DNA from: a virus
IMG/VR virus record: IMGVR_UViG_3300037245_001420
Span: 1 to 43,754 of that record
DNA: 43,754 bases
Strand: one strand, 5' to 3'
Positions 3,440 through 43,754 of the stretch are shown here, piece by piece (the stretch's first letter is position 1; each line of letters begins with the position of its first letter). The notes under the pieces are model-generated. The model saw nothing but the letters and a program-made list of their open reading frames with translations. It was not told where the DNA came from and made no database searches. Position numbers and translations under genes: made by a program.

Positions 3440-3777
3440 TCTCGCAGATGTCTCGCAAGGACTGCGGGCTTACTCCGGACAGTTTAATACCTGTCATGCC
3501 CCCTTATAAAATAGGGGGTTTCGAGGTAAGAGATAGAAAGTTCTTTGAAATAGTCTGATGAAGCTAAACAATAGTAAGCAGGAGATAGTTACCTGTCATT
3601 CAAGGAAAATTAAAAACTTATTACTATTTCACAAACCGAAGTGATAGTTTAGACGGATTAATGAGCGAATGTTGAAAACCGTGTTTTAAATCGGGATATA
3701 AACAGCTTAGACTTGGCAAACCAAGCAACAGTAATCATTCTTTGGTAAAGCAGGCTATTTCAATTTTAAATAAAACT
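3440..3777 (+). ncRNA. Candidate structured RNA or origin region
   Basis: A 338-base stretch with no credible gene and an unusual density of stems for AT-rich DNA. CGCA pairs with TGCG near 3444-3468. GACAG pairs with CTGTC (3478-3497), and CCCCCT with AGGGGG (about 3501-3520). A nested set follows: CTAAAC with GTTTAG, enclosing AATAGTAA with TTACTATT, enclosing CAGG with CCTG. Near 3712-3726, CTTGG pairs with CCAAG. It could be a structured non-coding RNA, an origin or a packaging region. No known RNA family was recognised. Confidence 0.4.
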
Positions 3778-3900
3778 ATGGAAGAGTTAGTATTTGATTT
3801 CGTAGAAGAAGGAAGCTTAACACCTATAGATATTGTAAGCGACATAACAGGACTTACTTACGAAGAAATTAGAAGTTGTTCTGAATGTATTAATGTTTAA
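3778..3900 (+). CDS. Very small acidic protein
   Basis: 40 residues, acidic, with the pattern SLTPIDIVSDITGLTYEEIR, which resembles a short helix-turn-helix. The ATG follows an A-rich leader, and its stop overlaps the next start by eight bases, which supports real translation. Function unknown. Confidence 0.45.
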   Translation: MEELVFDFVEEGSLTPIDIVSDITGLTYEEIRSCSECINV

Positions 3901-9332: not shown

Positions 9333-10925
9333 ATGGCTATAAAAACTTTTCCTGAGATAGTAGATATAATAAAAGAGGGCAGACCTGATTGGGTTAAAGA
9401 AGCAATATTAGAGCATGGAAGACTTAATGTTCATATTAACGGAAAACACACAGCAGCATATCTCCAAGCAATAGACAGTATTGAAAATGCAAAACAATTA
9501 AAGCTACGAAAAGAATTTTTAACTACCAATAGACACGTATTTGCTAATCTTAGCAGACCTATAGATAAGGTTTTTAGTGCTAAAGGTGGTGGTAATATCT
9601 ATAATCTAAATACTGATTCTAAAGAAAAAAAACTTACCGATAGATTAAGTAATGTAAGACATGGCAAAACTATTCGTAATTGGATAAAAGATATCCAAGC
9701 AAATAAATATTATACTGATCCCTCTGGATTGGTATTTTTTGAATGGAATTTAGAGTCTACATTCCCTACAATAAAATCTATTAAAGCTTTACAAAATTAT
9801 GAAAGCGATGGTCGCGCTTTAGAATGGGTGTTATTCGAACCTATTGAGGATACCAAAACCCAAACAAAAACATATAGATTTGTTGATGATCAGTTCGATT
9901 ATACTATAAGTAAAAAAGGTGAGGTATTCACTGTAATAGAAGATGAGACATTTAACAATCCATTCAAAGAAGTACCTGCCATTATCAATTCCGATATTAT
10001 CAATTCTAATTTAACACATAGCGAAAGTCCGTTTGAGTTAGTTATTAGTTTAGCAGATCACTATTTAAGAACAGGAACAATTAAAAACATTAATGAATTT
10101 TTACACGGGTATCCTATATTTTGGAGATATGCAACCGATTGTCAGGCATGTAATGGCACTAGATATATTGACGGTAAAGAATGCAAGGTTTGTAGTGGAT
10201 CAGGTAAGAACTTAAATAAAGATGTTACAGATGTAATTCAAGTTGAGAGACCAAGGGCTGGTGATCCTGTACTAACTCCTGATTTAGCCGGATATGTAAC
10301 TCCACCTATTGAGACTATTCAAGAAATGAGAGTAGAACAAGATAGCCTACAGTCACTAATGGAGCTTACAGTGTGGGGATCAAAGATGGTAAAGGATGCT
10401 GCAAACGAAACAGCTACAGCAGCGTTTCTGAATGTTCAGCCAGTTAATGAACGATTGAATGGGTTTTCTGATGCTTACGAGGATATGGAAAAGAAGATGA
10501 CCGATTTTATAGGTACATTTTATCTTAAGACTTATTCTGGATCAAGTATTAGTTATGGTCGCAGATATTTGATTGAATCTCCTGATATTATATGGGGCAA
10601 ATACGAAAAAGCACGAAAAGAAGGTGTTAGTAAAGTAGCTTTAGATTATTTGTTATTACAATTCTATCAATCAGAATACAATAACGATATAGAAAACTTA
10701 ACTATAATACAAAAAAGCATAAAGCTGGAACCGTTCATACATAAAACTGATGAAGAGTTAATAAAATTACCTGTTGCCGAGCCTGATAAAAAGGCAAAAA
10801 TATATTTTAATGAATGGTTTAAGCTATTAGATACATTTGATTTATTAACTATGGATGTAAAAGCATTACAAACAGAATACGAAACATATTTAAAAACACG
10901 AGAAGATGGTACAAACGTACAATGA
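9333..10925 (+). CDS. Portal protein
   Basis: 530 residues from MAIKTF, with the ATG at 9333 preferred over the TTG six bases upstream. Position directly after the large terminase, size and overall pattern fit a portal of Bacteroidota siphoviruses. About residues 266-290 contain two CxxCxG units (CQACNG and CKVCSGSG), a DnaJ-like zinc module that I associate with portal proteins of these phages. A long helical C-terminus follows. The portal forms the ring through which DNA enters the head and joins the tail. Confidence 0.8.
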   Translation: MAIKTFPEIVDIIKEGRPDWVKEAILEHGRLNVHINGKHTAAYLQAIDSIENAKQLKLRKEFLTTNRHVFANLSRPIDKVFSAKGGGNIYNLNTDSKEKKLTDRLSNVRHGKTIRNWIKDIQANKYYTDPSGLVFFEWNLESTFPTIKSIKALQNYESDGRALEWVLFEPIEDTKTQTKTYRFVDDQFDYTISKKGEVFTVIEDETFNNPFKEVPAIINSDIINSNLTHSESPFELVISLADHYLRTGTIKNINEFLHGYPIFWRYATDCQACNGTRYIDGKECKVCSGSGKNLNKDVTDVIQVERPRAGDPVLTPDLAGYVTPPIETIQEMRVEQDSLQSLMELTVWGSKMVKDAANETATAAFLNVQPVNERLNGFSDAYEDMEKKMTDFIGTFYLKTYSGSSISYGRRYLIESPDIIWGKYEKARKEGVSKVALDYLLLQFYQSEYNNDIENLTIIQKSIKLEPFIHKTDEELIKLPVAEPDKKAKIYFNEWFKLLDTFDLLTMDVKALQTEYETYLKTREDGTNVQ

Positions 10926-28309: not shown

Positions 28310-28656
28310 TTTTAACAAAAGAATTAAGAAAAGCATTTGCAAAAAAACTTGATGATTTAATTAAGTTGCCAGTTTGGGCAGAACCATTCGATCGAATGTT
28401 ATTTAAAATAGCATTAGAATATCTTGATGAAAATTATGGTGAAAAAATTCCTGAAAAGTTTGTTGATGATATTCAAAAGACAGTTCAGTTGTTTGTTGAT
28501 GACGATTATATTGGAATATTAGAAGTGATTCCTAATGTAATTAATGATGTTGTTGACATTCCTGGACTAGATGAAGATTTAGAAGGTAAGTTTTTTGCTA
28601 TAAATCTTAAAGCTATATTTGAGTTTATTAAATATTATGCTGAAAAGAATAAATAG
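28306..28656 (+). CDS. Unknown acidic protein at the end of the lysis operon
   Basis: 116 residues, helical, acidic, no membrane segment. It overlaps the preceding stop and is the last gene before a strong terminator. No family recognised. Confidence 0.6.
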   Translation: MILTKELRKAFAKKLDDLIKLPVWAEPFDRMLFKIALEYLDENYGEKIPEKFVDDIQKTVQLFVDDDYIGILEVIPNVINDVVDIPGLDEDLEGKFFAINLKAIFEFIKYYAEKNK

Positions 28657-28674
28657 CCGAGATTTGCGGAATAA

Positions 28675-28706
28675 AAAAAGACCATCATTCCAGTGATGGT
28701 CTTTTT
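28675..28706. terminator. Bidirectional intrinsic terminator
   Basis: A 13-base perfect stem, AAAAAGACCATCA with TGATGGTCTTTTT, around a six-base loop. It provides a T run on both strands and ends the late operon from the left and the reverse-strand genes from the right. Positions 28707-28823 hold no gene. Confidence 0.92.
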
Positions 28707-28823
28707 AATTAAACCTAAAATTGAATTAGTGATTAGAACATATTACTAAATATATGCGACTTCAAAATTACGAATAAATAAAATGATACGCAAATAATAA
28801 AATATCAGTGATTCTTTGTGTTG

Positions 28824-37210: not shown

Positions 37211-37213
37211 TCC

Positions 37214-37238
37214 AACTAGTCGAAAAATTCGATAAGTT
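37214..37238 (+). promoter_or_regulatory. Conserved 3' hairpin, copy 1
   Basis: Just after the stop codon: AACT, AG, TCGAA, loop AAA, TTCGA, T, AAGTT form a nested stem. Copy 2 at 37886 keeps the outer AACT and AGTT arms and the CAAAATA that follows, but has a different inner stem with matched changes. It lacks a T run, so it is not a usual terminator. Confidence 0.5.
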
Positions 37239-37254
37239 CAAAATAGATAAAAGT

Positions 37255-37881: not shown

Positions 37882-37885
37882 TCCC

Positions 37886-37910
37886 AACTAGTGCAAAAAT
37901 TGCACAAGTT
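37886..37910 (+). promoter_or_regulatory. Conserved 3' hairpin, copy 2
   Basis: AACT, A, GTGCAA, loop AAA, TTGCAC, A, AGTT, directly after the methyltransferase stop and followed by CAAAATA as in copy 1. The inner stem differs at several pairs from copy 1 while remaining fully paired. Confidence 0.5.
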
Positions 37911-37925
37911 CAAAATAAACCGTAA

Positions 37926-37966: not shown

Positions 37967-38239
37967 ATGTTTATACTAAGAAGGATTACATCAGAAAACA
38001 AACAAGTGAATGACTGTTTAGGAGATCGTTATCACCTTGTTTTGAAAGAAACCAACAAAGATGACTATGTAGATGCATTAACAGAAGTGAAATGGAAGGG
38101 TGATGACGATGAATTGTACGGATTTGTCATTTATTCAAGTGGAAATGAAATGATACACAGTCCATTGTATAAGGAATCAATTTACTTTATTATGACTGAA
38201 AGTGGTAAAACTTTTGCAAATATCACTTTTAAAGTTTGA
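37967..38239 (+). CDS. Unknown conserved phage protein
   Basis: 90 residues beginning MFILRRITSEN. The middle GDRYHLVL and the end SIYFIMTESGKTFANITF follow a pattern I associate with hypothetical proteins of Bacteroides phages. It has its own regulated promoter, and its last bases contain the -33 element of the following RNA gene. Confidence 0.65.
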   Translation: MFILRRITSENKQVNDCLGDRYHLVLKETNKDDYVDALTEVKWKGDDDELYGFVIYSSGNEMIHSPLYKESIYFIMTESGKTFANITFKV

Positions 38240-38265
38240 TATTAAATTAATTATTTGTAATTTAG
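38235..38265 (+). promoter_or_regulatory. Promoter of the small RNA candidate
   Basis: TTTG (38235-38238), 19 bases, TAATTTAG (38258-38265). A start about six bases downstream coincides with the first base of the RNA stem at 38273. Confidence 0.6.
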
Positions 38266-38270
38266 CAGAT

Positions 38271-38398
38271 AATTAACAGCTACGATATGGTAATAAAATT
38301 TAATACATTTATAAATATAGCCCTTTCTGGGATAAGTGATCACAAGGTTTACGTAGCTGTTAACTTGTGGTTTTCTTGTTTTAGGAAGGGTTTTTTTT
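38271..38398 (+). ncRNA. Pseudoknotted small RNA candidate with own promoter and terminator
   Basis: About 128 bases. Helix 1: TTAACAGCTACG (38273-38284) with CGTAGCTGTTAA (38352-38363), 12 perfect pairs. Helix 2: CCCTTTCT (38321-38328) with AGGAAGGG (38383-38390), followed by a run of T. Helix 3: CACAAG (38341-38346) with CTTGTG (38364-38369). Helix 1 crosses helices 2 and 3. No reading frame of note is inside. Not recognised as a known family. Confidence 0.6.
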
Positions 38399-38411
38399 AA
38401 TACTTAAAATT

Positions 38412-38582
38412 ATGGATAGATTTAATTGCCCTATGGCAAATTGTTTTGAAGATGAAATATATTGCGGTTATTATGATGTATTTTATATGAAATGCTTTGA
38501 AAATAAAGATTGTCCTGAAGAAAATGGAGATCATGAAGATGATCAAGAATATGAGTATGAAGATGGATTACCAAACTGGTAA
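38412..38582 (+). CDS. Small acidic protein with N-terminal cysteines
   Basis: 56 residues: CPMANC and YCGYY in the first 20 positions, then a very acidic tail (EENGDHEDDQEYEYEDG). It may bind metal. It begins just after the small RNA terminator, so the RNA could also act as its leader if termination is partial. No family recognised. Confidence 0.5.
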   Translation: MDRFNCPMANCFEDEIYCGYYDVFYMKCFENKDCPEENGDHEDDQEYEYEDGLPNW

Positions 38583-38602
38583 TTAAAACGAATAGTTATA
38601 TT

Positions 38603-38827
38603 ATGAAAACACTATCAGAAAACGAAAACAAAGTATTAAATTACCTTTATAGTCATTCCGGATTAACAACTAGAAAGGCTGTAAATGAATTAAATATAAT
38701 GAACGTGCAAGATGTGATTTTCCGACTTCGTAGGCTTGGTTATTATATTCAAAAAGAATGGATAAAAACATCTAATAATAAGAGATATGCTACTTATAGT
38801 TTAGAAACAATTAGTTATGAGAAATGA
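38603..38827 (+). CDS. Winged-helix DNA-binding protein
   Basis: 74 residues in a winged helix-turn-helix pattern: helix ENENKVLNYLYSH, turn GLTTRKAVNELN, recognition helix VQDVIFRLRRLGYYI and a wing (NNKRYATYSL). It is a candidate transcription regulator of the replication block. The stop region overlaps the HNH gene by 11 bases. Confidence 0.7.
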   Translation: MKTLSENENKVLNYLYSHSGLTTRKAVNELNIMNVQDVIFRLRRLGYYIQKEWIKTSNNKRYATYSLETISYEK

Positions 38828-39161
38828 AAGCATAAAAATATTGTATGATAAGATCAAAAAAATTAAAGCCATGCCGTATAAATATATGCCATATAAAAAG
38901 CAATTAGGTACAAAAGAATGGCAATATTTTAGATTATATGTAATATTAGCAAAAGGTACTAAATGCGAATTATGCGATTATAATAACATTAAATACTTGC
39001 AGCCACATCATATAGAATATAAAAAAGGTTTGATGGCTTGGCAATATGAATTAATCGACATGATGGTTTTATGTAGAACACATCATAAAAAAATACATAT
39101 GCCTATGTTAAGAGAAAAATACAATAGAACTAAATCTTTAAAAAAAATAATCAATGGCTAA
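38817..39161 (+). CDS. HNH endonuclease
   Basis: 114 residues. CELC (50-53), QPHHIEY (H64, H65), then VLCRTHHKKIH (C86, H89, H90) form an HNH fold with four zinc ligands. The usual central asparagine is aspartate here (D81), which occurs in some active members. It may be a homing or packaging-related nuclease. It overlaps the next gene by eight bases. Confidence 0.75.
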   Translation: MRNESIKILYDKIKKIKAMPYKYMPYKKQLGTKEWQYFRLYVILAKGTKCELCDYNNIKYLQPHHIEYKKGLMAWQYELIDMMVLCRTHHKKIHMPMLREKYNRTKSLKKIING

Positions 39162-39909
39162 GGAACTTCCATACTTCAGATTTTATCCTAGTGAATGGTT
39201 AGAGGGTGATATTACACTCGAAAATGAAAAAACTCAGGGCTTTTTTATTAAACTTTGTGCATGGTATTGGAAAAAAGATTGTAAAATTGATTTAGAATTC
39301 ATAAATAAAAGGTTAATCAACGGTAAAGCGATGCTTAAGCAGTGCTTAAATACATTAATTGAGTCTGAAGTAATAAAAGTGAATGAAGATAAGACAGTTA
39401 GTATATATTTTCTCGATGAACAATTTGATATCTTAAGTGAAAATAGACAAAAAAAGGTTGATTCTGGACGTAAAGGAGGTCAAGCATCGGTTAAGCAACG
39501 CTCAAGCTATAAGTATAAAGATAAGTATAAAAATAATAATAAAATAAATATAGATAATAAGCAAACACTAAACTCAGCAACAGAAATTTTTAAATTTTTA
39601 AATGAAATAAAAGAAGAAAAAATGCAAGGAATGATAGAACTTGCTCAATTTAGTGGAAATTTAAAAGAGCTTAAACAAAAATTTTCAGTTGAGTTCATCG
39701 GTCGTTATGGTTTAAATAAAACAAAAGAAGAAGTTTTATCAACTTTTCAAAGTTGGATGAATAGAGATAAAAACATTAAAAAGCCTATGACAGATCACGA
39801 AAAAGTAAAAGAAGATAGTAGAAAAAGTAAAATATATCCAGGTACAATCAAAGATAAAATTTATGGGGGCATGGATAATATAGGTAGTATATTGAAAAAT
39901 GATGATTAA
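39154..39909 (+). CDS. Replisome organiser-like protein (DnaD/DUF1376 type)
   Basis: 251 residues. The N-terminus MAKELPYFRFYPSEWLEGDI and GFFIKLCAWYW are characteristic of phage replication initiators with a winged-helix domain. The middle has a basic linker (RKGGQASVKQRSSYKYKDK), and the C-terminus is helical with a conserved-type FQSWMNRD. Such proteins bind the origin and recruit the host helicase loader. Since no phage polymerase or helicase is seen, this is the main replication candidate. Confidence 0.7.
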   Translation: MAKELPYFRFYPSEWLEGDITLENEKTQGFFIKLCAWYWKKDCKIDLEFINKRLINGKAMLKQCLNTLIESEVIKVNEDKTVSIYFLDEQFDILSENRQKKVDSGRKGGQASVKQRSSYKYKDKYKNNNKINIDNKQTLNSATEIFKFLNEIKEEKMQGMIELAQFSGNLKELKQKFSVEFIGRYGLNKTKEEVLSTFQSWMNRDKNIKKPMTDHEKVKEDSRKSKIYPGTIKDKIYGGMDNIGSILKNDD

Positions 39910-40063: not shown

Positions 40064-40416
40064 ATGAAATTATTTAAAGTGATGACGCAAGGAATGAAGT
40101 CTAATTGTACTGGTGTCGCTTATGGAACTGCTTACGTAGTGGCTAGCGATCCAACTGAAGCTTATAAGAAATTAAGAAGATTCTTAGATAATGAAGATTT
40201 AGGCTTTAGATCAGAAAGAGAGCTAGACACAATCGAAGTGATTGCAGATGAAGAGCAGTATAACGATGTAGGATTTATATTATACACCTAATAATATTTA
40301 TCTTTACTCTGGTATCTTAAAACTTGCCCTTGATTCATAGTTATACACTGTGAGTTTAGGGAAAAACTTCAATTGTTGTACAAGTTTTAAGGTGTGATGG
40401 AATATTCTCGGCTGTT
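39989..40416 (+). repeat. Array X unit around the gene at 40064
   Basis: Outer arms AACA..GAGAATA (39989-40004) and TATTCTC..TGTT (40403-40416) pair with a central mismatch. An inner arm, GTTTTAAGATACC (40012-40024), pairs perfectly with GGTATCTTAAAAC (40311-40323) across the gene. The right half has its own hairpin, AAAACTTG with CAAGTTTT (about 40319-40387). This is the most divergent unit. Confidence 0.55.
40064..40291 (+). CDS. Cassette gene, conserved small phage-type protein
   Basis: 75 residues beginning MKLFKVMTQGMKSNC. The middle GTAYVVASDPTEAYKKLRRFLD is a pattern I associate with small phage proteins. No catalytic motif. It is the first cargo gene of the array and has perfect inverted arms on both sides. 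Confidence 0.65.
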   Translation: MKLFKVMTQGMKSNCTGVAYGTAYVVASDPTEAYKKLRRFLDNEDLGFRSERELDTIEVIADEEQYNDVGFILYT

Positions 40417-40695
40417 ATAGCACAATGGCTTTTGGTTTTTGCGCTTTGGAGCGAGGGGAATTTTAAAATTTATTTCAATTATGGAAAAAGATTTAACAGA
40501 AGCTAACGGAATTGATCTACTTGATGAATTCGAAAAACTTATTCAAGAACAAGCGAGAAAACCTAAAACATTTGATAAAATTAAATACAAAAAGGAGAGA
40601 TTAAATATTGTCTACGAAGAAGTTTTTAGAAGAATGTTTAATTATGTTAACTAATTTTTAAATTAGGGAAGGACAGTGAGTCATTGTGCTATAAT
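40414..40695 (+). repeat. Array H-type unit carrying the gene at 40481
   Basis: TTATAGCACAATG (40415-40427) pairs perfectly with CATTGTGCTATAA (40682-40694) across the gene. Boundary boxes are GTTATAG (40414-40420) and CTATAAT (40689-40695). The left part contains GGTTTTTGCGCTTTGGAGCG, which matches the loop motif of H hairpins, so this is an H hairpin with a gene in its loop. Confidence 0.6.
40481..40654 (+). CDS. Cassette gene, small helical protein
   Basis: 57 residues from the ATG after CAATT; an in-frame start 42 bases earlier would lie inside the H-loop motif and is not used. Acidic and helical (GIDLLDEFEKLIQEQARK). Function unknown. Confidence 0.55.
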   Translation: MEKDLTEANGIDLLDEFEKLIQEQARKPKTFDKIKYKKERLNIVYEEVFRRMFNYVN

Positions 40696-41040
40696 ATTTC
40701 AAGTTATATGTGACGGAAATTTTTAACACTTTTTATATGGGATGTAAAGACAAATCAATATTTAGACAGAACATAACCTTCAATGAAGGTATGAAGATAA
40801 TTAATTCAATACCGAGAGGGAAGGATATTTTCGTGTTTAGAATAAGCCTAACGTCTAGTAGTTGTAGGTACGGCAAAGAAAAGTATATACTTTCAATAGC
40901 GTATAGAAAATGTGGGAATAAAAAGTGTTAGGAATTTATGGCTTATGATAATCTAGTTGTGAGTAGTCATCTTTGGTTAAGAGATGATCTTAATCGAAGT
41001 ATCATAAGCCTGTGCGGAAGGACATATAACTTGAAATATT
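40693..41040 (+). repeat. Array X unit around the gene at 40737
   Basis: AATATTTCAAGTTATATGT (40693-40711) pairs with ACATATAACTTGAAATATT (41022-41040) without mismatch. A second pair of arms, 18 bases each (40717-40734 and 40920-40937), is complementary with two G-U pairs and covers the stretch before the ATG and the stop codon of the gene. GGCTTATGATA and TATCATAAGCC form a local stem in the right half. Confidence 0.75.
40737..40931 (+). CDS. Cassette gene, small basic protein
   Basis: 64 residues from ATG 40737 (MGCKDKSIFRQN). A GTG at 40710 is in frame, but it lies in the repeat arm. Beta-rich with several serines and cysteines (SLTSSSCRYGKEK). Both the ribosome entry region and the stop codon lie in a long complementary stem, so its translation may depend on that stem opening. 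Function unknown. Confidence 0.5.
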   Translation: MGCKDKSIFRQNITFNEGMKIINSIPRGKDIFVFRISLTSSSCRYGKEKYILSIAYRKCGNKKC

Positions 41041-41120
41041 GTGAGTAATGATCCTTGCCTTTTTGAGCGTTTGAAGGGAAGGGTTTTGTGCGGAATGCCG
41101 AGCTGTCAATTAATCACAAC
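41038..41120 (+). repeat. Array H hairpin (type 2)
   Basis: Boxes ATTGTGA (41038-41044) and TCACAAC (41114-41120). The loop has TTTTTGAGCGTTTGAAGGG and TTTTGTGCGGAATGCCGAGC, almost identical to the hairpin at 42823-42904, but the left arm (GTAATGATC) pairs poorly with CAATTAA on the right. This may be a hybrid of two different half-sites. Confidence 0.65.
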
Positions 41121-41438
41121 ACCAAGGAAAATATGGGACGGTTTAATTTAAAACATTAAGATTATGAAAAAACCAAAGGAAATTAGAATTAGTATAATTA
41201 GCTTACAGCTAAAAGAGAATGAAATTTTAATTAAAATAAATGAAACAAATCTTACTTATACAGAAAAGATTAAATATTACACACAGCTTTCAAGTATATC
41301 TATTAAAATTTCAGAATTAGAAAGAGTTTTGAATTGAAATGTACTATGATTTTTTAGTTATGAGTAGAAATATTAGGAATATAAACTTGCAGATACTGAA
41401 GGACGTCTCCTGCGGGACGGCATATTTTCCTTGGTGTT
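41118..41438 (+). repeat. Array X unit around the gene at 41164
   Basis: AACACCAAGGAAAATATG (41118-41135) pairs with CATATTTTCCTTGGTGTT (41421-41438), 18 perfect pairs. TTTAATTTAAAAC before the gene pairs with GTTTTGAATTGAAA at its end with one bulge. The AAATCATAG helix is missing here, although CTATGATTT is present on the right. Confidence 0.75.
41164..41337 (+). CDS. Cassette gene, coiled-coil peptide
   Basis: 57 residues, helical, isoleucine- and leucine-rich heptads (ISIISLQLKENEILI, then SSISIKISELERVL), suggesting self-association. The stop codon lies within the right inner arm. No family recognised. Confidence 0.55.
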   Translation: MKKPKEIRISIISLQLKENEILIKINETNLTYTEKIKYYTQLSSISIKISELERVLN

Positions 41439-41597
41439 ATGCGTAAAAATATTTGGAATGGAAACTAAACTTGAAGATTGTAGATTTTGGACTTGCTATA
41501 ACTGTCCTTTTATAGATATGTGTTACAAATATCAAGAGGGTAGGCGAGGATGGAACGACCGCAGGGAGTTAGCGAAGCGGGAATTTTTACGCCTAAT
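41436..41597 (+). repeat. Array H hairpin holding a gene start
   Basis: Boxes GTTATGC (41436-41442) and GCCTAAT (41591-41597). GCGTAAAAAT (41441-41450) pairs with ATTTTTACGC (41583-41592). Instead of a short loop, the interior carries most of the gene at 41458, showing that H positions can also hold coding DNA. Confidence 0.65.
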
Positions 41598-41649
41598 ATT
41601 TGGGAAATATGGGACGGAATTTGAGGGTGTAAAATCATCAACACTATGA
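41458..41649 (+). CDS. Cassette gene in an H hairpin, cysteine-rich protein
   Basis: 63 residues from METKLEDCRFW. CRFWTCYNCPFIDMC suggests a zinc- or cluster-binding site in the first 22 residues. The later part (RRELAKREFLRLIFGKYG) reads through the H right arm and X left arm, so its C-terminus is made of repeat sequence and may be non-essential. It could have been longer before insertion into the array. Confidence 0.5.
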   Translation: METKLEDCRFWTCYNCPFIDMCYKYQEGRRGWNDRRELAKREFLRLIFGKYGTEFEGVKSSTL

Positions 41650-41681
41650 AAGTAAAGAGTTTATTATTAAATATTTTTTAA
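41646..41681 (+). CDS. Possible leader peptide
   Basis: An 11-codon frame (MKVKSLLLNIF) whose stop codon touches a strong Shine-Dalgarno sequence, AGGAGG at 41681-41686. Such an arrangement could couple its translation to the next gene. Expression is unproven. Confidence 0.25.
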   Translation: MKVKSLLLNIF

Positions 41682-41693
41682 GGAGGGAATTTT

Positions 41694-41870
41694 ATGAAAT
41701 TTAAAAAAGGAGACCAGGCAATAATAACTGATGATAGTAATTTACGTCATCTTAGAATAATGGATAAAGTTACAATCAAGATAGTTGATCCTTTATCTAC
41801 AATCTTAACATATTACGTAGAAGATATTAATGGTATAGGACAATGGGTATCTGAAAATCAGATAGCATAA
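41694..41870 (+). CDS. Cassette gene, small SH3-like protein
   Basis: 58 residues. FKKGDQAIITDD at the start and YYVEDINGIGQWVSENQI at the end are typical of small SH3-like barrels found in phage and mobile-element proteins. It is preceded by AGGAGG seven bases before the ATG, a signal that is rare in Bacteroidota and in the rest of this window, so the gene may come from another kind of host. Function unknown. Confidence 0.6.
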   Translation: MKFKKGDQAIITDDSNLRHLRIMDKVTIKIVDPLSTILTYYVEDINGIGQWVSENQIA

Positions 41871-41883
41871 AAATTTAGAAACT

Positions 41884-42159
41884 ATGAAAAAAAAGTACGA
41901 CATGAAACCAATAGTTGATTTAATGGATAACTCTATTAATAAACTGAAAAAATTAGTACCAAAAGAACATCAATTAATTTGCAGCGATTGTGGACAAATC
42001 ATAGACATGAGAGATTTAAGCCAAGTTTTCGCACATGAGCCTTGTGATGGCATTCAGAAAAATTACAATGATGTTGAACAAATACCATACTCATCTAGTC
42101 AGAAAATAGGAGAACCTATAATTTGGACAAAAGACAAGAGAGCTATACACTTAAATTAA
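41884..42159 (+). CDS. Cassette gene with zinc-ribbon-like motif
   Basis: 91 residues. LICSDCGQIIDMRDLSQVFAHEPC gives CxxC plus a later histidine and cysteine, a plausible zinc site (residues 48-69). The N-terminus is helical and basic. It is second in a two-gene cassette, 13 bases after the SH3-like gene. No function assigned. Confidence 0.6.
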   Translation: MKKKYDMKPIVDLMDNSINKLKKLVPKEHQLICSDCGQIIDMRDLSQVFAHEPCDGIQKNYNDVEQIPYSSSQKIGEPIIWTKDKRAIHLN

Positions 42160-42505
42160 ACAGTTTAGAATAAACTGAAAAAGCGTAGGCAAAAAAATAT
42201 TTAATATTAAGATAAACCAATACTATGAAAAAAGACTCTCAAATTCTGTTCTATGATTTCTTAGTTGTGCATATGTTGCAGGAATGCTACGAACTATCAG
42301 ATAACTAAGAAAGTGGGACGGATTATTTCCCAAATATTGGGCATAATTGGTTTTGGTTGTGTGTTAGCCTGGTGAGGGTTTTTGCGGGAAGCGGTGAGCA
42401 ATTATGCCTAATGTTTCAGTAAATATGGGACGGGTTTTTAAGGGTAGAATCATAGTGATGATTATATATAATAAATTAAATGTTTAATTAAAAAGTAATA
42501 AAATT
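42160..42505 (+). other. Non-coding array junction
   Basis: 346 bases without a credible gene. A short frame beginning MKKDSQILFYDF at 42224 runs into the repeat and is probably an extended form of the repeat frame noted elsewhere. The rest consists of the right half of the X unit that ends at 42338, the H hairpin at 42336-42412 and the left half of the next unit. Confidence 0.6.
42336..42412 (+). repeat. Array H hairpin (type 1)
   Basis: Boxes ATTGGGC (42336-42342) and GCCTAAT (42406-42412). The loop is identical to the copy at 55-131. Only the last bases of the right box differ (TAAT here, CAAC there), matching the cassette that follows. Confidence 0.75.
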
Positions 42506-42825
42506 ATGACAGTTAAAGAATTGAAAGAGAAACTGAATAAATTTCCAGACAATACAGATGTATTTGTAGATGAAAGATACACTGAATTTACTTATGGAAT
42601 CGTAAACTCAGTACACATGATGGAAATTGATTTAGTTGAAGAACCAGGAGGTGATTCACTTGCTCAGCAAGATGTAGTTATAATTAGTGAAGAATAATTT
42701 TATGGGTTCAAGGCTTCTGCCCTTAAAAACATGTCCTATGATTTATTAGTTGTGAGTCGTTGACAGTTATGGCAGGAACTGTCAGACACGTACAGAGGTG
42801 CGGAAGCCTTATTTACTGAAACATT
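42410..42825 (+). repeat. Array X unit around the gene at 42506
   Basis: AATGTTTCAGTAAATA (42410-42425) pairs with TATTTACTGAAACATT (42810-42825). GTTTTTAAGGG (42434-42444) pairs with CCCTTAAAAAC (42720-42730), and AATCATAG (42448-42455) with CTATGATT (42736-42743). GACAGTT and AACTGTC form a local hairpin in the right half. Confidence 0.8.
42506..42697 (+). CDS. Cassette gene, small conserved phage-type protein
   Basis: 63 residues beginning MTVKELKEKLNKFPDNTDVFV, a start shared by many small phage proteins of unknown role. The middle is beta-rich and the end acidic. The ATG follows AATAAAATT. Enclosed by fully matched arms. Confidence 0.65.
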   Translation: MTVKELKEKLNKFPDNTDVFVDERYTEFTYGIVNSVHMMEIDLVEEPGGDSLAQQDVVIISEE

Positions 42826-42904
42826 GTGATTAATTGTGTTGCCTTTTTGAGCGTTTGAAGGGAAGGGTTTTGTGCGGAATGCCGAGCTGTCAATTAATCA
42901 CAAC
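42823..42904 (+). repeat. Array H hairpin (type 2)
   Basis: Boxes ATTGTGA (42823-42829) and TCACAAC (42898-42904); TGTGATTAATTG pairs with CAATTAATCACA. The loop matches that of 41038-41120 closely. Confidence 0.75.
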
Positions 42905-43300
42905 GCTTCAGGAAATATGGGATGGCTTTTTAAGGGCAAATCATAGCCCTATCTATTATATATAAATTTAATATTAATCACTAAAGAAAGAAAATTATGA
43001 AAACTAAATTTGTTGAAGAAAAGACAAAAAAGAGTTTAGCTGTCAAGGACGGCATAATTCCTGTTGTAAAATGGGATAAAGTTACTATTAACGAGATAAA
43101 TTATAGTGTAATATCATGGCGTTTCGATATTGATATGGAATTATATTATGTTTATTTAGAAGTCTAATAATTTTATGGAGATCATTGGGAAGGCCCTTGA
43201 AAAGCTTTCCTATGATTTACTTGTTAGGTTTAGTTGACTTAGGTAGGTAGTCCGTTTCGGATAGCTGAGATTGTGCGTAAGCCTTATTTTCTGAAGCGTT
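42902..43300 (+). repeat. Array X unit around the gene at 42997
   Basis: AACGCTTCAGGAAATA (42902-42917) pairs with TATTTTCTGAAGCGTT (43285-43300) with one G-T pair. GCTTTTTAAGGGC (42925-42937) pairs with GCCCTTGAAAAGC (43193-43205) with one G-T pair. AAATCATAG (42938-42946) pairs with CTATGATTT (43210-43218). Confidence 0.8.
42997..43167 (+). CDS. Cassette gene, small unknown protein
   Basis: 56 residues, basic N-terminus (MKTKFVEEKTKKS) and a beta-rich end (INYSVISWRFDIDMELYYVY). No motif. The ATG follows a purine-rich leader (AAAGAAAGAAAATTATG). The flanks on both sides, about 300 bases, hold only array repeats. Confidence 0.55.
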   Translation: MKTKFVEEKTKKSLAVKDGIIPVVKWDKVTINEINYSVISWRFDIDMELYYVYLEV

Positions 43301-43382
43301 AAGGTTCAATTGAACTGGTTTTTGTGGGCTGTTGTAGGGTGGATATTTTGTGTGGAAGCCGTGCGGTCAATTGAACCTTAAT
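43298..43382 (+). repeat. Array H hairpin (type 3)
   Basis: Boxes GTTAAGG (43298-43304) and CCTTAAT (43376-43382). AAGGTTCAATTGA pairs with TCAATTGAACCTT. The loop is related to but distinct from types 1 and 2 (TTTTGTGTGGAAGCCGTGCGG). Confidence 0.75.
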
Positions 43383-43738
43383 ATTTGGGAAATATGGGAC
43401 GGAATTTGAGGGTACTCAAAATCATAGTCTCACAAAGAAATGAATTTAATATTAACTAATATATAATAAAATTATGACACTTGAAATTAGAGAGTATGAA
43501 TATGATGATTCAGATGCAATGAAAAGATTTGTATCTTGCTTGCGTAAAGATAACTTAATAAATATACACTATTGTTCCAATATAGATAAATATTTTGTGT
43601 ATTACTGGGTATAATTTTATGAACTATACACACGACTCTCAAATTCTGTTCTATGATTTCTTAGTTGTGCATATGTTGCAGGAATGCTACGAACTATCAG
43701 ATAACTAAGAAAGTGGGACGGATTATTTCCCAAATATT
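43380..43738 (+). repeat. Array X unit around the gene at 43474
   Basis: AATATTTGGGAAAT (43380-43393) pairs with ATTTCCCAAATATT (43725-43738). GAATTTGAG (43402-43410) pairs with CTCAAATTC (43638-43646). AAATCATAG (43419-43427) pairs with CTATGATTT (43651-43659). Its repeat sequences are almost identical to those of the unit at 604-970. Confidence 0.8.
43474..43614 (+). CDS. Cassette gene, very small protein
   Basis: 46 residues, acidic start (MTLEIREYEYDDSDAM), two cysteines, an aromatic end (KYFVYYWV). The leader AACTAATATATAATAAAATT before its ATG is nearly the same as that of the gene at 697, so the two cassettes share a recent origin for their flanks, though the genes differ. Function unknown. 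Confidence 0.5.
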   Translation: MTLEIREYEYDDSDAMKRFVSCLRKDNLINIHYCSNIDKYFVYYWV

Positions 43739-43754
43739 GGGCATAATTGGTTTT
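43682..43754. repeat. Direct terminal repeat, right copy
   Basis: Identical to positions 1-73. It covers the right arm of an ORF-spanning stem and the beginning of an inter-gene hairpin that continues at position 74. Array features in this region should be read across the junction. Confidence 0.9.

Follow-up and report, generated by a model that had tools for sequence, protein, structure and literature searches.

A predicted pseudoknotted RNA family with a terminator-like hairpin ahead of replication genes in Flavobacteriia phages

The question raised by this locus is what lies between a gene for a 90-aa protein (37967-38239) and an operon (38412-39909) in a virus record. This record, 43,754 bases long and carrying a terminal repeat of 73 nt, was analysed over its full length and is called the window below. 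A preliminary description had proposed a new pseudoknotted RNA with a predicted promoter and terminator of its own. Our analysis supports this proposal, which was correct and indeed understated; Rfam 15 matched neither the window nor any of 13 segments holding related elements. The window is placed by its terminase and replication protein as a phage of Flavobacteriia, and its relatives are Polaribacter, Flavobacterium and Cellulophaga phages plus environmental contigs. We consider it very probable that a structured RNA family exists in these phages and that the window element belongs to it.

Predicted structure of the window RNA

A Bacteroidota-type promoter (38235-38265; this and all features below are on the plus strand) comprises a -33 TTTG (38235-38238), a 19-nt spacer, and the -7 element TAATTTAG (38258-38265). 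It agrees with the consensus at 9 of 10 letters and predicts a start at 38272, one base ahead of the first helix, H1, which begins at 38273; the promoter had already been described as placing the start at this stem. Matches to the consensus are no commoner on the whole strand than chance would give (12 vs 11.7), half of them fall in the 13% of the DNA that is non-coding, and several sit -2 to 21 nt ahead of real start codons. Taken alone, the promoter match is weak evidence.

The 5' strand of H1 (S1a; TTAACAGCTACG, 38273-38284) is followed by a 34-nt A/U-rich linker (38285-38318) and then by the 5' strand of helix 2 (S2, 38319-38336), the basal stem of a terminator-like hairpin. Helix 3 (S3, 5' strand 38338-38346) closes the apical loop, which holds the 3' strand of H1 (S1b, 38352-38363); the 3' strand of S3 (38364-38372) directly abuts S1b, and that of S2 (38375-38392) leads directly into a T8 run (38391-38398), the tail of a predicted intrinsic terminator and the end of a predicted 127-nt RNA. 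H1 has 12 Watson-Crick pairs, H2 18 pairs (six of them G.U), and H3 nine. H2 and H3 are mutually nested and both cross H1, with no base common to any two helices. The three helices and the terminal T run are all as first described.

H2 and H3 together make a single hairpin (-33.8 kcal/mol); its loop of 17 nt includes the 3' strand of H1, S1b being separated from S3 by 5 nt at its 5' end and by 0 nt at its 3' end. The fold has z scores of -4.6 and -5.9 and ranks third among 1362 folding windows of this phage. In dinucleotide shuffles, a Watson-Crick helix of at least 12 pairs arose in 9/2000 and a helix of at least 18 in 5/2000. The reverse strand folds far more weakly (-21 vs -35 kcal/mol), i.e., the structure is strand-specific. 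Explaining the site at the DNA level, as a palindrome, an att site, or the inverted repeat of a mobile element, was rejected: on the plus strand G.U pairs make up 8 of the hairpin's 27, and the reverse strand folds much worse.

Several other folded elements occur in the window. A further very strong fold (28607-28800; z -6.4 and -5.8) between convergent genes is probably a two-way terminator. Two copies of a CCAACTAGT-stem-AAGTTCAAAATA element (37212-37245 and 37884-37917) follow stop codons ahead of the next gene; their stems differ yet are self-complementary (CGAA/TTCG vs GTGCAA/TTGCAC), making this a small covarying hairpin. An array of small ORFs, each followed by a strongly folded repeat of ~200 nt, occupies 40064-43754 and 1-1060, crossing the contig ends up to a gene for a tyrosine recombinase resembling XerA or integron integrases (1073-1900; model matches below the curated cut-offs). 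The repeats have shared blocks up to 97-100% identical and minimum free energies of -57 to -97 kcal/mol, and gave no match in annotated phages or relatives. The arrangement resembles a cassette array of the integron type carried by a phage; integrons in phages have already been reported (PMC9892861).

Recurrence of the architecture in related phages

No sequence homologue of the RNA was found in viral contigs, whether by pattern or via neighbouring genes, in annotated phages and plasmids, or in relatives that have the terminase or the 90-aa protein in common with the window. The 397 genomes of the family of Tenacibaculum likewise held no homologue and gave only short A/T-rich chance matches, and a covariance model built from the window sequence alone found nothing credible. 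Matches to an H1-arm pattern in 11 contigs were rejected as homologues, being chance or coding. The family is invisible to such searches because only shape is kept.

When phages whose replication protein is related to that of the window were inspected at the corresponding position, the same design did emerge, in the Cellulophaga phages Nekkels_1 and phi10:1/phi19:1. Here the gene order runs from a DNA methyltransferase or endonuclease through a gap and a small gene to the replication protein and primase, and the gap of ~180-240 nt contains a promoter and a terminator hairpin whose apical loop is complementary to the 5' part. The promoters of phi19:1 and Nekkels_1 are identical at 43/43 positions, and the RNA bodies are 50% identical, against a baseline from shuffled sequence of 43% (maximum 48.5%). 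The Nekkels_1 member (L114 3317-3500) has a second loop-leader helix, GTCTAAC/GTTAGAC, besides TTGGAA/TTCCAA.

The common architecture is a 5' strand, usually in a small hairpin, that pairs with the apical loop of the terminator hairpin, giving a kissing loop or pseudoknot. In most members a small 5' hairpin, S0, presents S1a in its loop (e.g., CTGTAG[AACTTCCAC]CTACAG), and S1b fills an apical loop closed by S3 (e.g., CCAAA[TCTGACCG]TTTGG). This loop is usually 6-10 nt long, most often 8, and reaches 13 in the Flavobacterium members and 17 in the window. Apical loops this small suggest that the two hairpins coexist with the loop contact. Of the elements that define the family, the window has a TAnnTTTG-type promoter shortly 5' of S1a (TAATTTAG, with S1a at +1; the -7 element is mostly TATATTTG in relatives), at least six Watson-Crick pairs between the 5' strand and the apical loop (12 in the window), and an S3 stem flanking S1b inside S2 plus a U-run (nine pairs and T8).

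We scanned about 1 Mb of relatives for this architecture; the criteria were a -7 element of the promoter, an S1 no more than 25 nt from the start, S2, the loop, S3 flanking S1b, and a T-rich tail. With strict geometry, applied to 958 kb, the scan gave 16 hits vs 0.6 in shuffled sets, a few of the hits being duplicates from overlapping or near-identical records. With ten shuffled sets, there were 12 hits vs 0.1 at a score of at least 34, 10 vs 0.0 at 39, and 7 vs 0 at 42; the window element had the highest score. The thresholds were set after several members had been seen, and therefore the later finds, the S0 test, and the covariation test carry most weight. As to later finds, the phi46:3 member came from a scan of a second set outside the discovery set, and members in phi18:3, P12002L, and Harreka_1, also outside that set, were reached at the same place via flanking sequence. 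As to S0, which was not among the scan criteria, its summed score was 138, whereas scores in 2000 shuffles averaged 56 and never exceeded 94.5 (0/2000).

Neither 132 kb of non-Bacteroidota contigs nor two further phages yielded a site in the scan. The family is not universal, since no member was found in FPSV-S2, Ingeline_6, B124-14, or the first 50 kb each of phi40:1 and Colly_1.

The Flavobacterium phages morran, lillamy/hattifnatt, and snusmum/mumin are alignable by sequence, although they give only three distinct sequences. In this alignment 98.9% of cells are paired, and six pairs changed on both sides vs 2.0 in shuffles (0/500) and 0-1 in slid-partner controls. Three of the six double changes lie in the kissing helix, which reads GTGAGAAG, GTGAGACG, and GTGGAACG, with matching partners. 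As read from the alignment, the double changes are unambiguous. The preliminary description would have been undermined by homologous regions lacking compensatory changes; the Flavobacterium members do show them. The covariation result covers these members, and the window element, which has no alignable homologue, is assigned to the family by its architecture and place. The same fold at the same place with wholly different letters in many phages nonetheless indicates that the RNA family is real.

Rather than forming a kissing loop, the window element itself may represent a simple pseudoknot variant, because its own S0 is not significant (p 0.55 for the window alone) and its S1 is longer than those of relatives, with 12 bp where the family has a strand of 6-12 nt.

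Two further RNA features were met. A second small conserved leader motif, GGTAATCTTAAAACC-like with a covarying closing stem, lies in several phages between the terminator RNA (or a small gene) and the next ATG (L117 about 3755-3800, L120 about 10455-10500, L185 about 320-350, L187 about 525-560), and an environmental phage contig (L126 8158-8387) has a match to permuted tmRNA (RF04321) above the gathering score.

Neighbouring genes and possible function

The upstream 90-aa protein (window 37967-38239; L002-L025) belongs to a Bacteroidota phage family with an invariant C-terminal MTESGKTF motif, has relatives in Tenacibaculum and a Methylophaga MAG, and has no Pfam or PHROG match. Just 5' of several relatives of its gene lies a GCCGAAAANCTAAAGAGTAGGC motif, which is the known Rfam DUF805b RNA (L007 298-329, L012 2136-2167, L014 4949-4980; L117 2300-2334). 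A link between this gene and the window RNA was considered and rejected, the two not being linked.

Downstream, the first gene (38412-38582) begins 14 nt past the T-run and encodes a 56-aa acidic, Cys-containing protein for which no family match was found in Pfam or PHROG. It is followed by genes for a winged HTH protein (HTH_39; 38603-38827; PF14090, 2.8e-10), an HNH endonuclease (38817-39161; protein family match), and a replication-initiation (replisome organizer or primosomal) protein (39154-39909; phrog_29280, 1e-18, and phrog_9327), homologues of which sit ahead of primase/helicase in Cellulophaga phages. The window RNA thus lies just ahead of a replication-protein operon, a position typical of the family, and no promoter fits between its T-run and the next ATG. 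In most members a start codon follows the T-run by about 10-50 nt, and the genes 3' of members mostly serve DNA replication or recombination: besides replication organizer/primase operons and two helicases there are a RecT-like protein, a RecA/Sak4-like ATPase, and HNH endonucleases (names of environmental genes are our reading of translated motifs). This position favours a leader function; a sensor or an attenuator had been named in the preliminary description as a possible role.

The simplest working model, because the T-run adjoins replication or recombination genes and no promoter intervenes in the window, is that the element acts in cis as a conditional terminator (attenuator) of the early replication operon; our computational analysis gives us moderate confidence in this. 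Transcription would start shortly ahead of the 6-12-nt S1a strand, which usually sits within the loop of a small 5' hairpin, and proceed through an A/U-rich linker into the terminator hairpin (S2 plus S3) with S1b in its apical loop; the two loops would kiss, and the U-run would follow. By default most transcripts would end at the hairpin, each as a compact RNA about 100-130 nt long, and the replication genes further down would depend on read-through. Most likely the kissing helix sets the strength of the terminator, or is melted or bound by some factor, for which a phage protein, the ribosome, or an RNA polymerase factor would be candidates.

The suggestion in the preliminary description that H2 might compete with H1 is unsupported, because the two share no bases and a strand able to compete for the 3' arm of the terminator is clearly significant only in phi19:1; in relatives, moreover, S1b sits in a loop of kissing-complex size. 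Among 14 members, such a strand had p 0.006 in phi19:1 and a borderline p 0.048 in G020a; it was not significant in the others, including the window (p 0.56). The antiterminator strand is therefore not conserved, and a classical attenuator switch is not evident. Attenuators of the plasmid or leader type (pT181, pIP501, amino-acid operons) consist of a promoter, a short leader, and a terminator just before a gene, a layout common to them and the window family. Unlike these systems, the window family has no conserved antiterminator and no identified antisense RNA, and its loop-loop contact lies within one RNA.

Distinct from the conditional terminator, and rather unlikely in our view, is a stand-alone trans-acting small RNA, in which the terminated RNA of 100-130 nt would pair with or sequester another RNA or a protein. 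The complete predicted transcription unit, from promoter to terminator, is what such an RNA would have, the compact kissing fold would make it stable, and two differing members can occur in one genome (G008 and G020). However, the letters of every helix and loop differ among phages, so that a common base-pairing target is improbable; members lie nearly always directly 5' of a gene in the same orientation, leaving hardly any space, or none, for another promoter; and the seed TTAACAGCTACG has no other match beyond chance in this phage. Type III toxin-antitoxin RNAs (ToxI/CptI) are H-type pseudoknot RNAs with a terminator, and the window RNA is similar in both respects; unlike them it has no tandem repeats, and no ToxN-like gene was identified adjoining it by protein family matches.

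More doubtful is a nascent-RNA element of the lambdoid put/nut type, which would bind RNA polymerase or a phage protein and change later elongation. It would fit a promoter-proximal element with two hairpins ahead of early operons, kept in structure and free in sequence, but the terminator-like hairpin of each member would have to be overcome first, and no conserved protein partner was found adjoining. The HK022 put RNA (structure reported in PMC9378689) is, like the members, a nascent, promoter-proximal phage RNA ahead of early genes. It differs in that it suppresses termination and is itself no terminator, whereas here the second hairpin is terminator-like, with a loop whose pairing partner is the first hairpin or the 5' end.

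That the hairpin is an ordinary terminator of the upstream operon, crossed by H1 by chance, has very little probability left. The upstream gene does end 80 nt before, and the single long hairpin accounts for the minimum free energy, but a family with the same crossing helix and with compensatory changes already makes this unlikely at the family level. A function as replication origin was thought less likely, since contig G008 carries its two members 1.8 kb apart.

Translation-coupled control is marginally less probable again. It would involve a 37-codon ATG ORF (38287-38400) that overlaps the RNA, the start of which H1 would block; a translating ribosome would melt the hairpin and allow read-through. 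The ATG lies 15 nt from the predicted transcription start in a context equal to the median of true genes, the stop falls just past the T-run, and in some relatives the annotation places a short ORF over the element (e.g., morran gp042, phi46:3 gp054). On the other hand, codon usage is neutral, no credible peptide homologue was found, and most relatives, judged by eye, have no comparable ORF. The ORF is probably incidental, because its codon usage is neutral and it is not general in relatives. The earlier statement that the element has no coding potential was too strong in view of the ordinary start context, while its neutral codons and missing homologue agree with it.

Least probable is intermolecular loop-loop pairing (dimers, rings, phage-specific copy counting, or superinfection control), which the self-complementary loops and a hypervariable RNA adjoining an identical promoter would suit and which would explain why every phage has its own loop pair, but a cis element conserved only in structure would vary likewise. 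In phi29 pRNA, an RNA of about 120 nt with a role in packaging, mutually complementary loops do pair between molecules; the window family is of similar size and also has complementary loops, but differs in genomic place.

Novelty and biological meaning

The RNA family appears to be new. Skipping-rope RNA (RF02924) is, like the window element, a pseudoknotted phage RNA, and is said to end in a terminator; its covariance model found no match in the window record plus 14 member records at E<=1 (0/15), nor did a cmscan of the window and member segments. Papers on North Sea and Baltic phages (PMC8776804, PMC7077304) make no mention of RNA elements, promoters, or terminators, and we found no description of such an RNA element in the literature searched, which covered few subscription journals.

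An improbable but far-reaching reading is a widespread class of phage RNA with an intrinsic terminator built into an intramolecular kissing loop whose letters are private to each phage, giving a self-specific read-out before the replication genes. If true, the phage's own released RNA could read out termination, for instance as a copy counter or a superinfection switch.

Early gene control in Bacteroidota phages has been little studied at the RNA level. The recurrence of this RNA ahead of replication genes in many cultured flavobacterial phages provides a concrete, testable regulatory element, and the member phages that can be grown have hosts in Cellulophaga, Flavobacterium, Polaribacter, and Olleya. 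More generally, discovery of the Rfam type can miss entire classes of RNA if all of their helices turn over.
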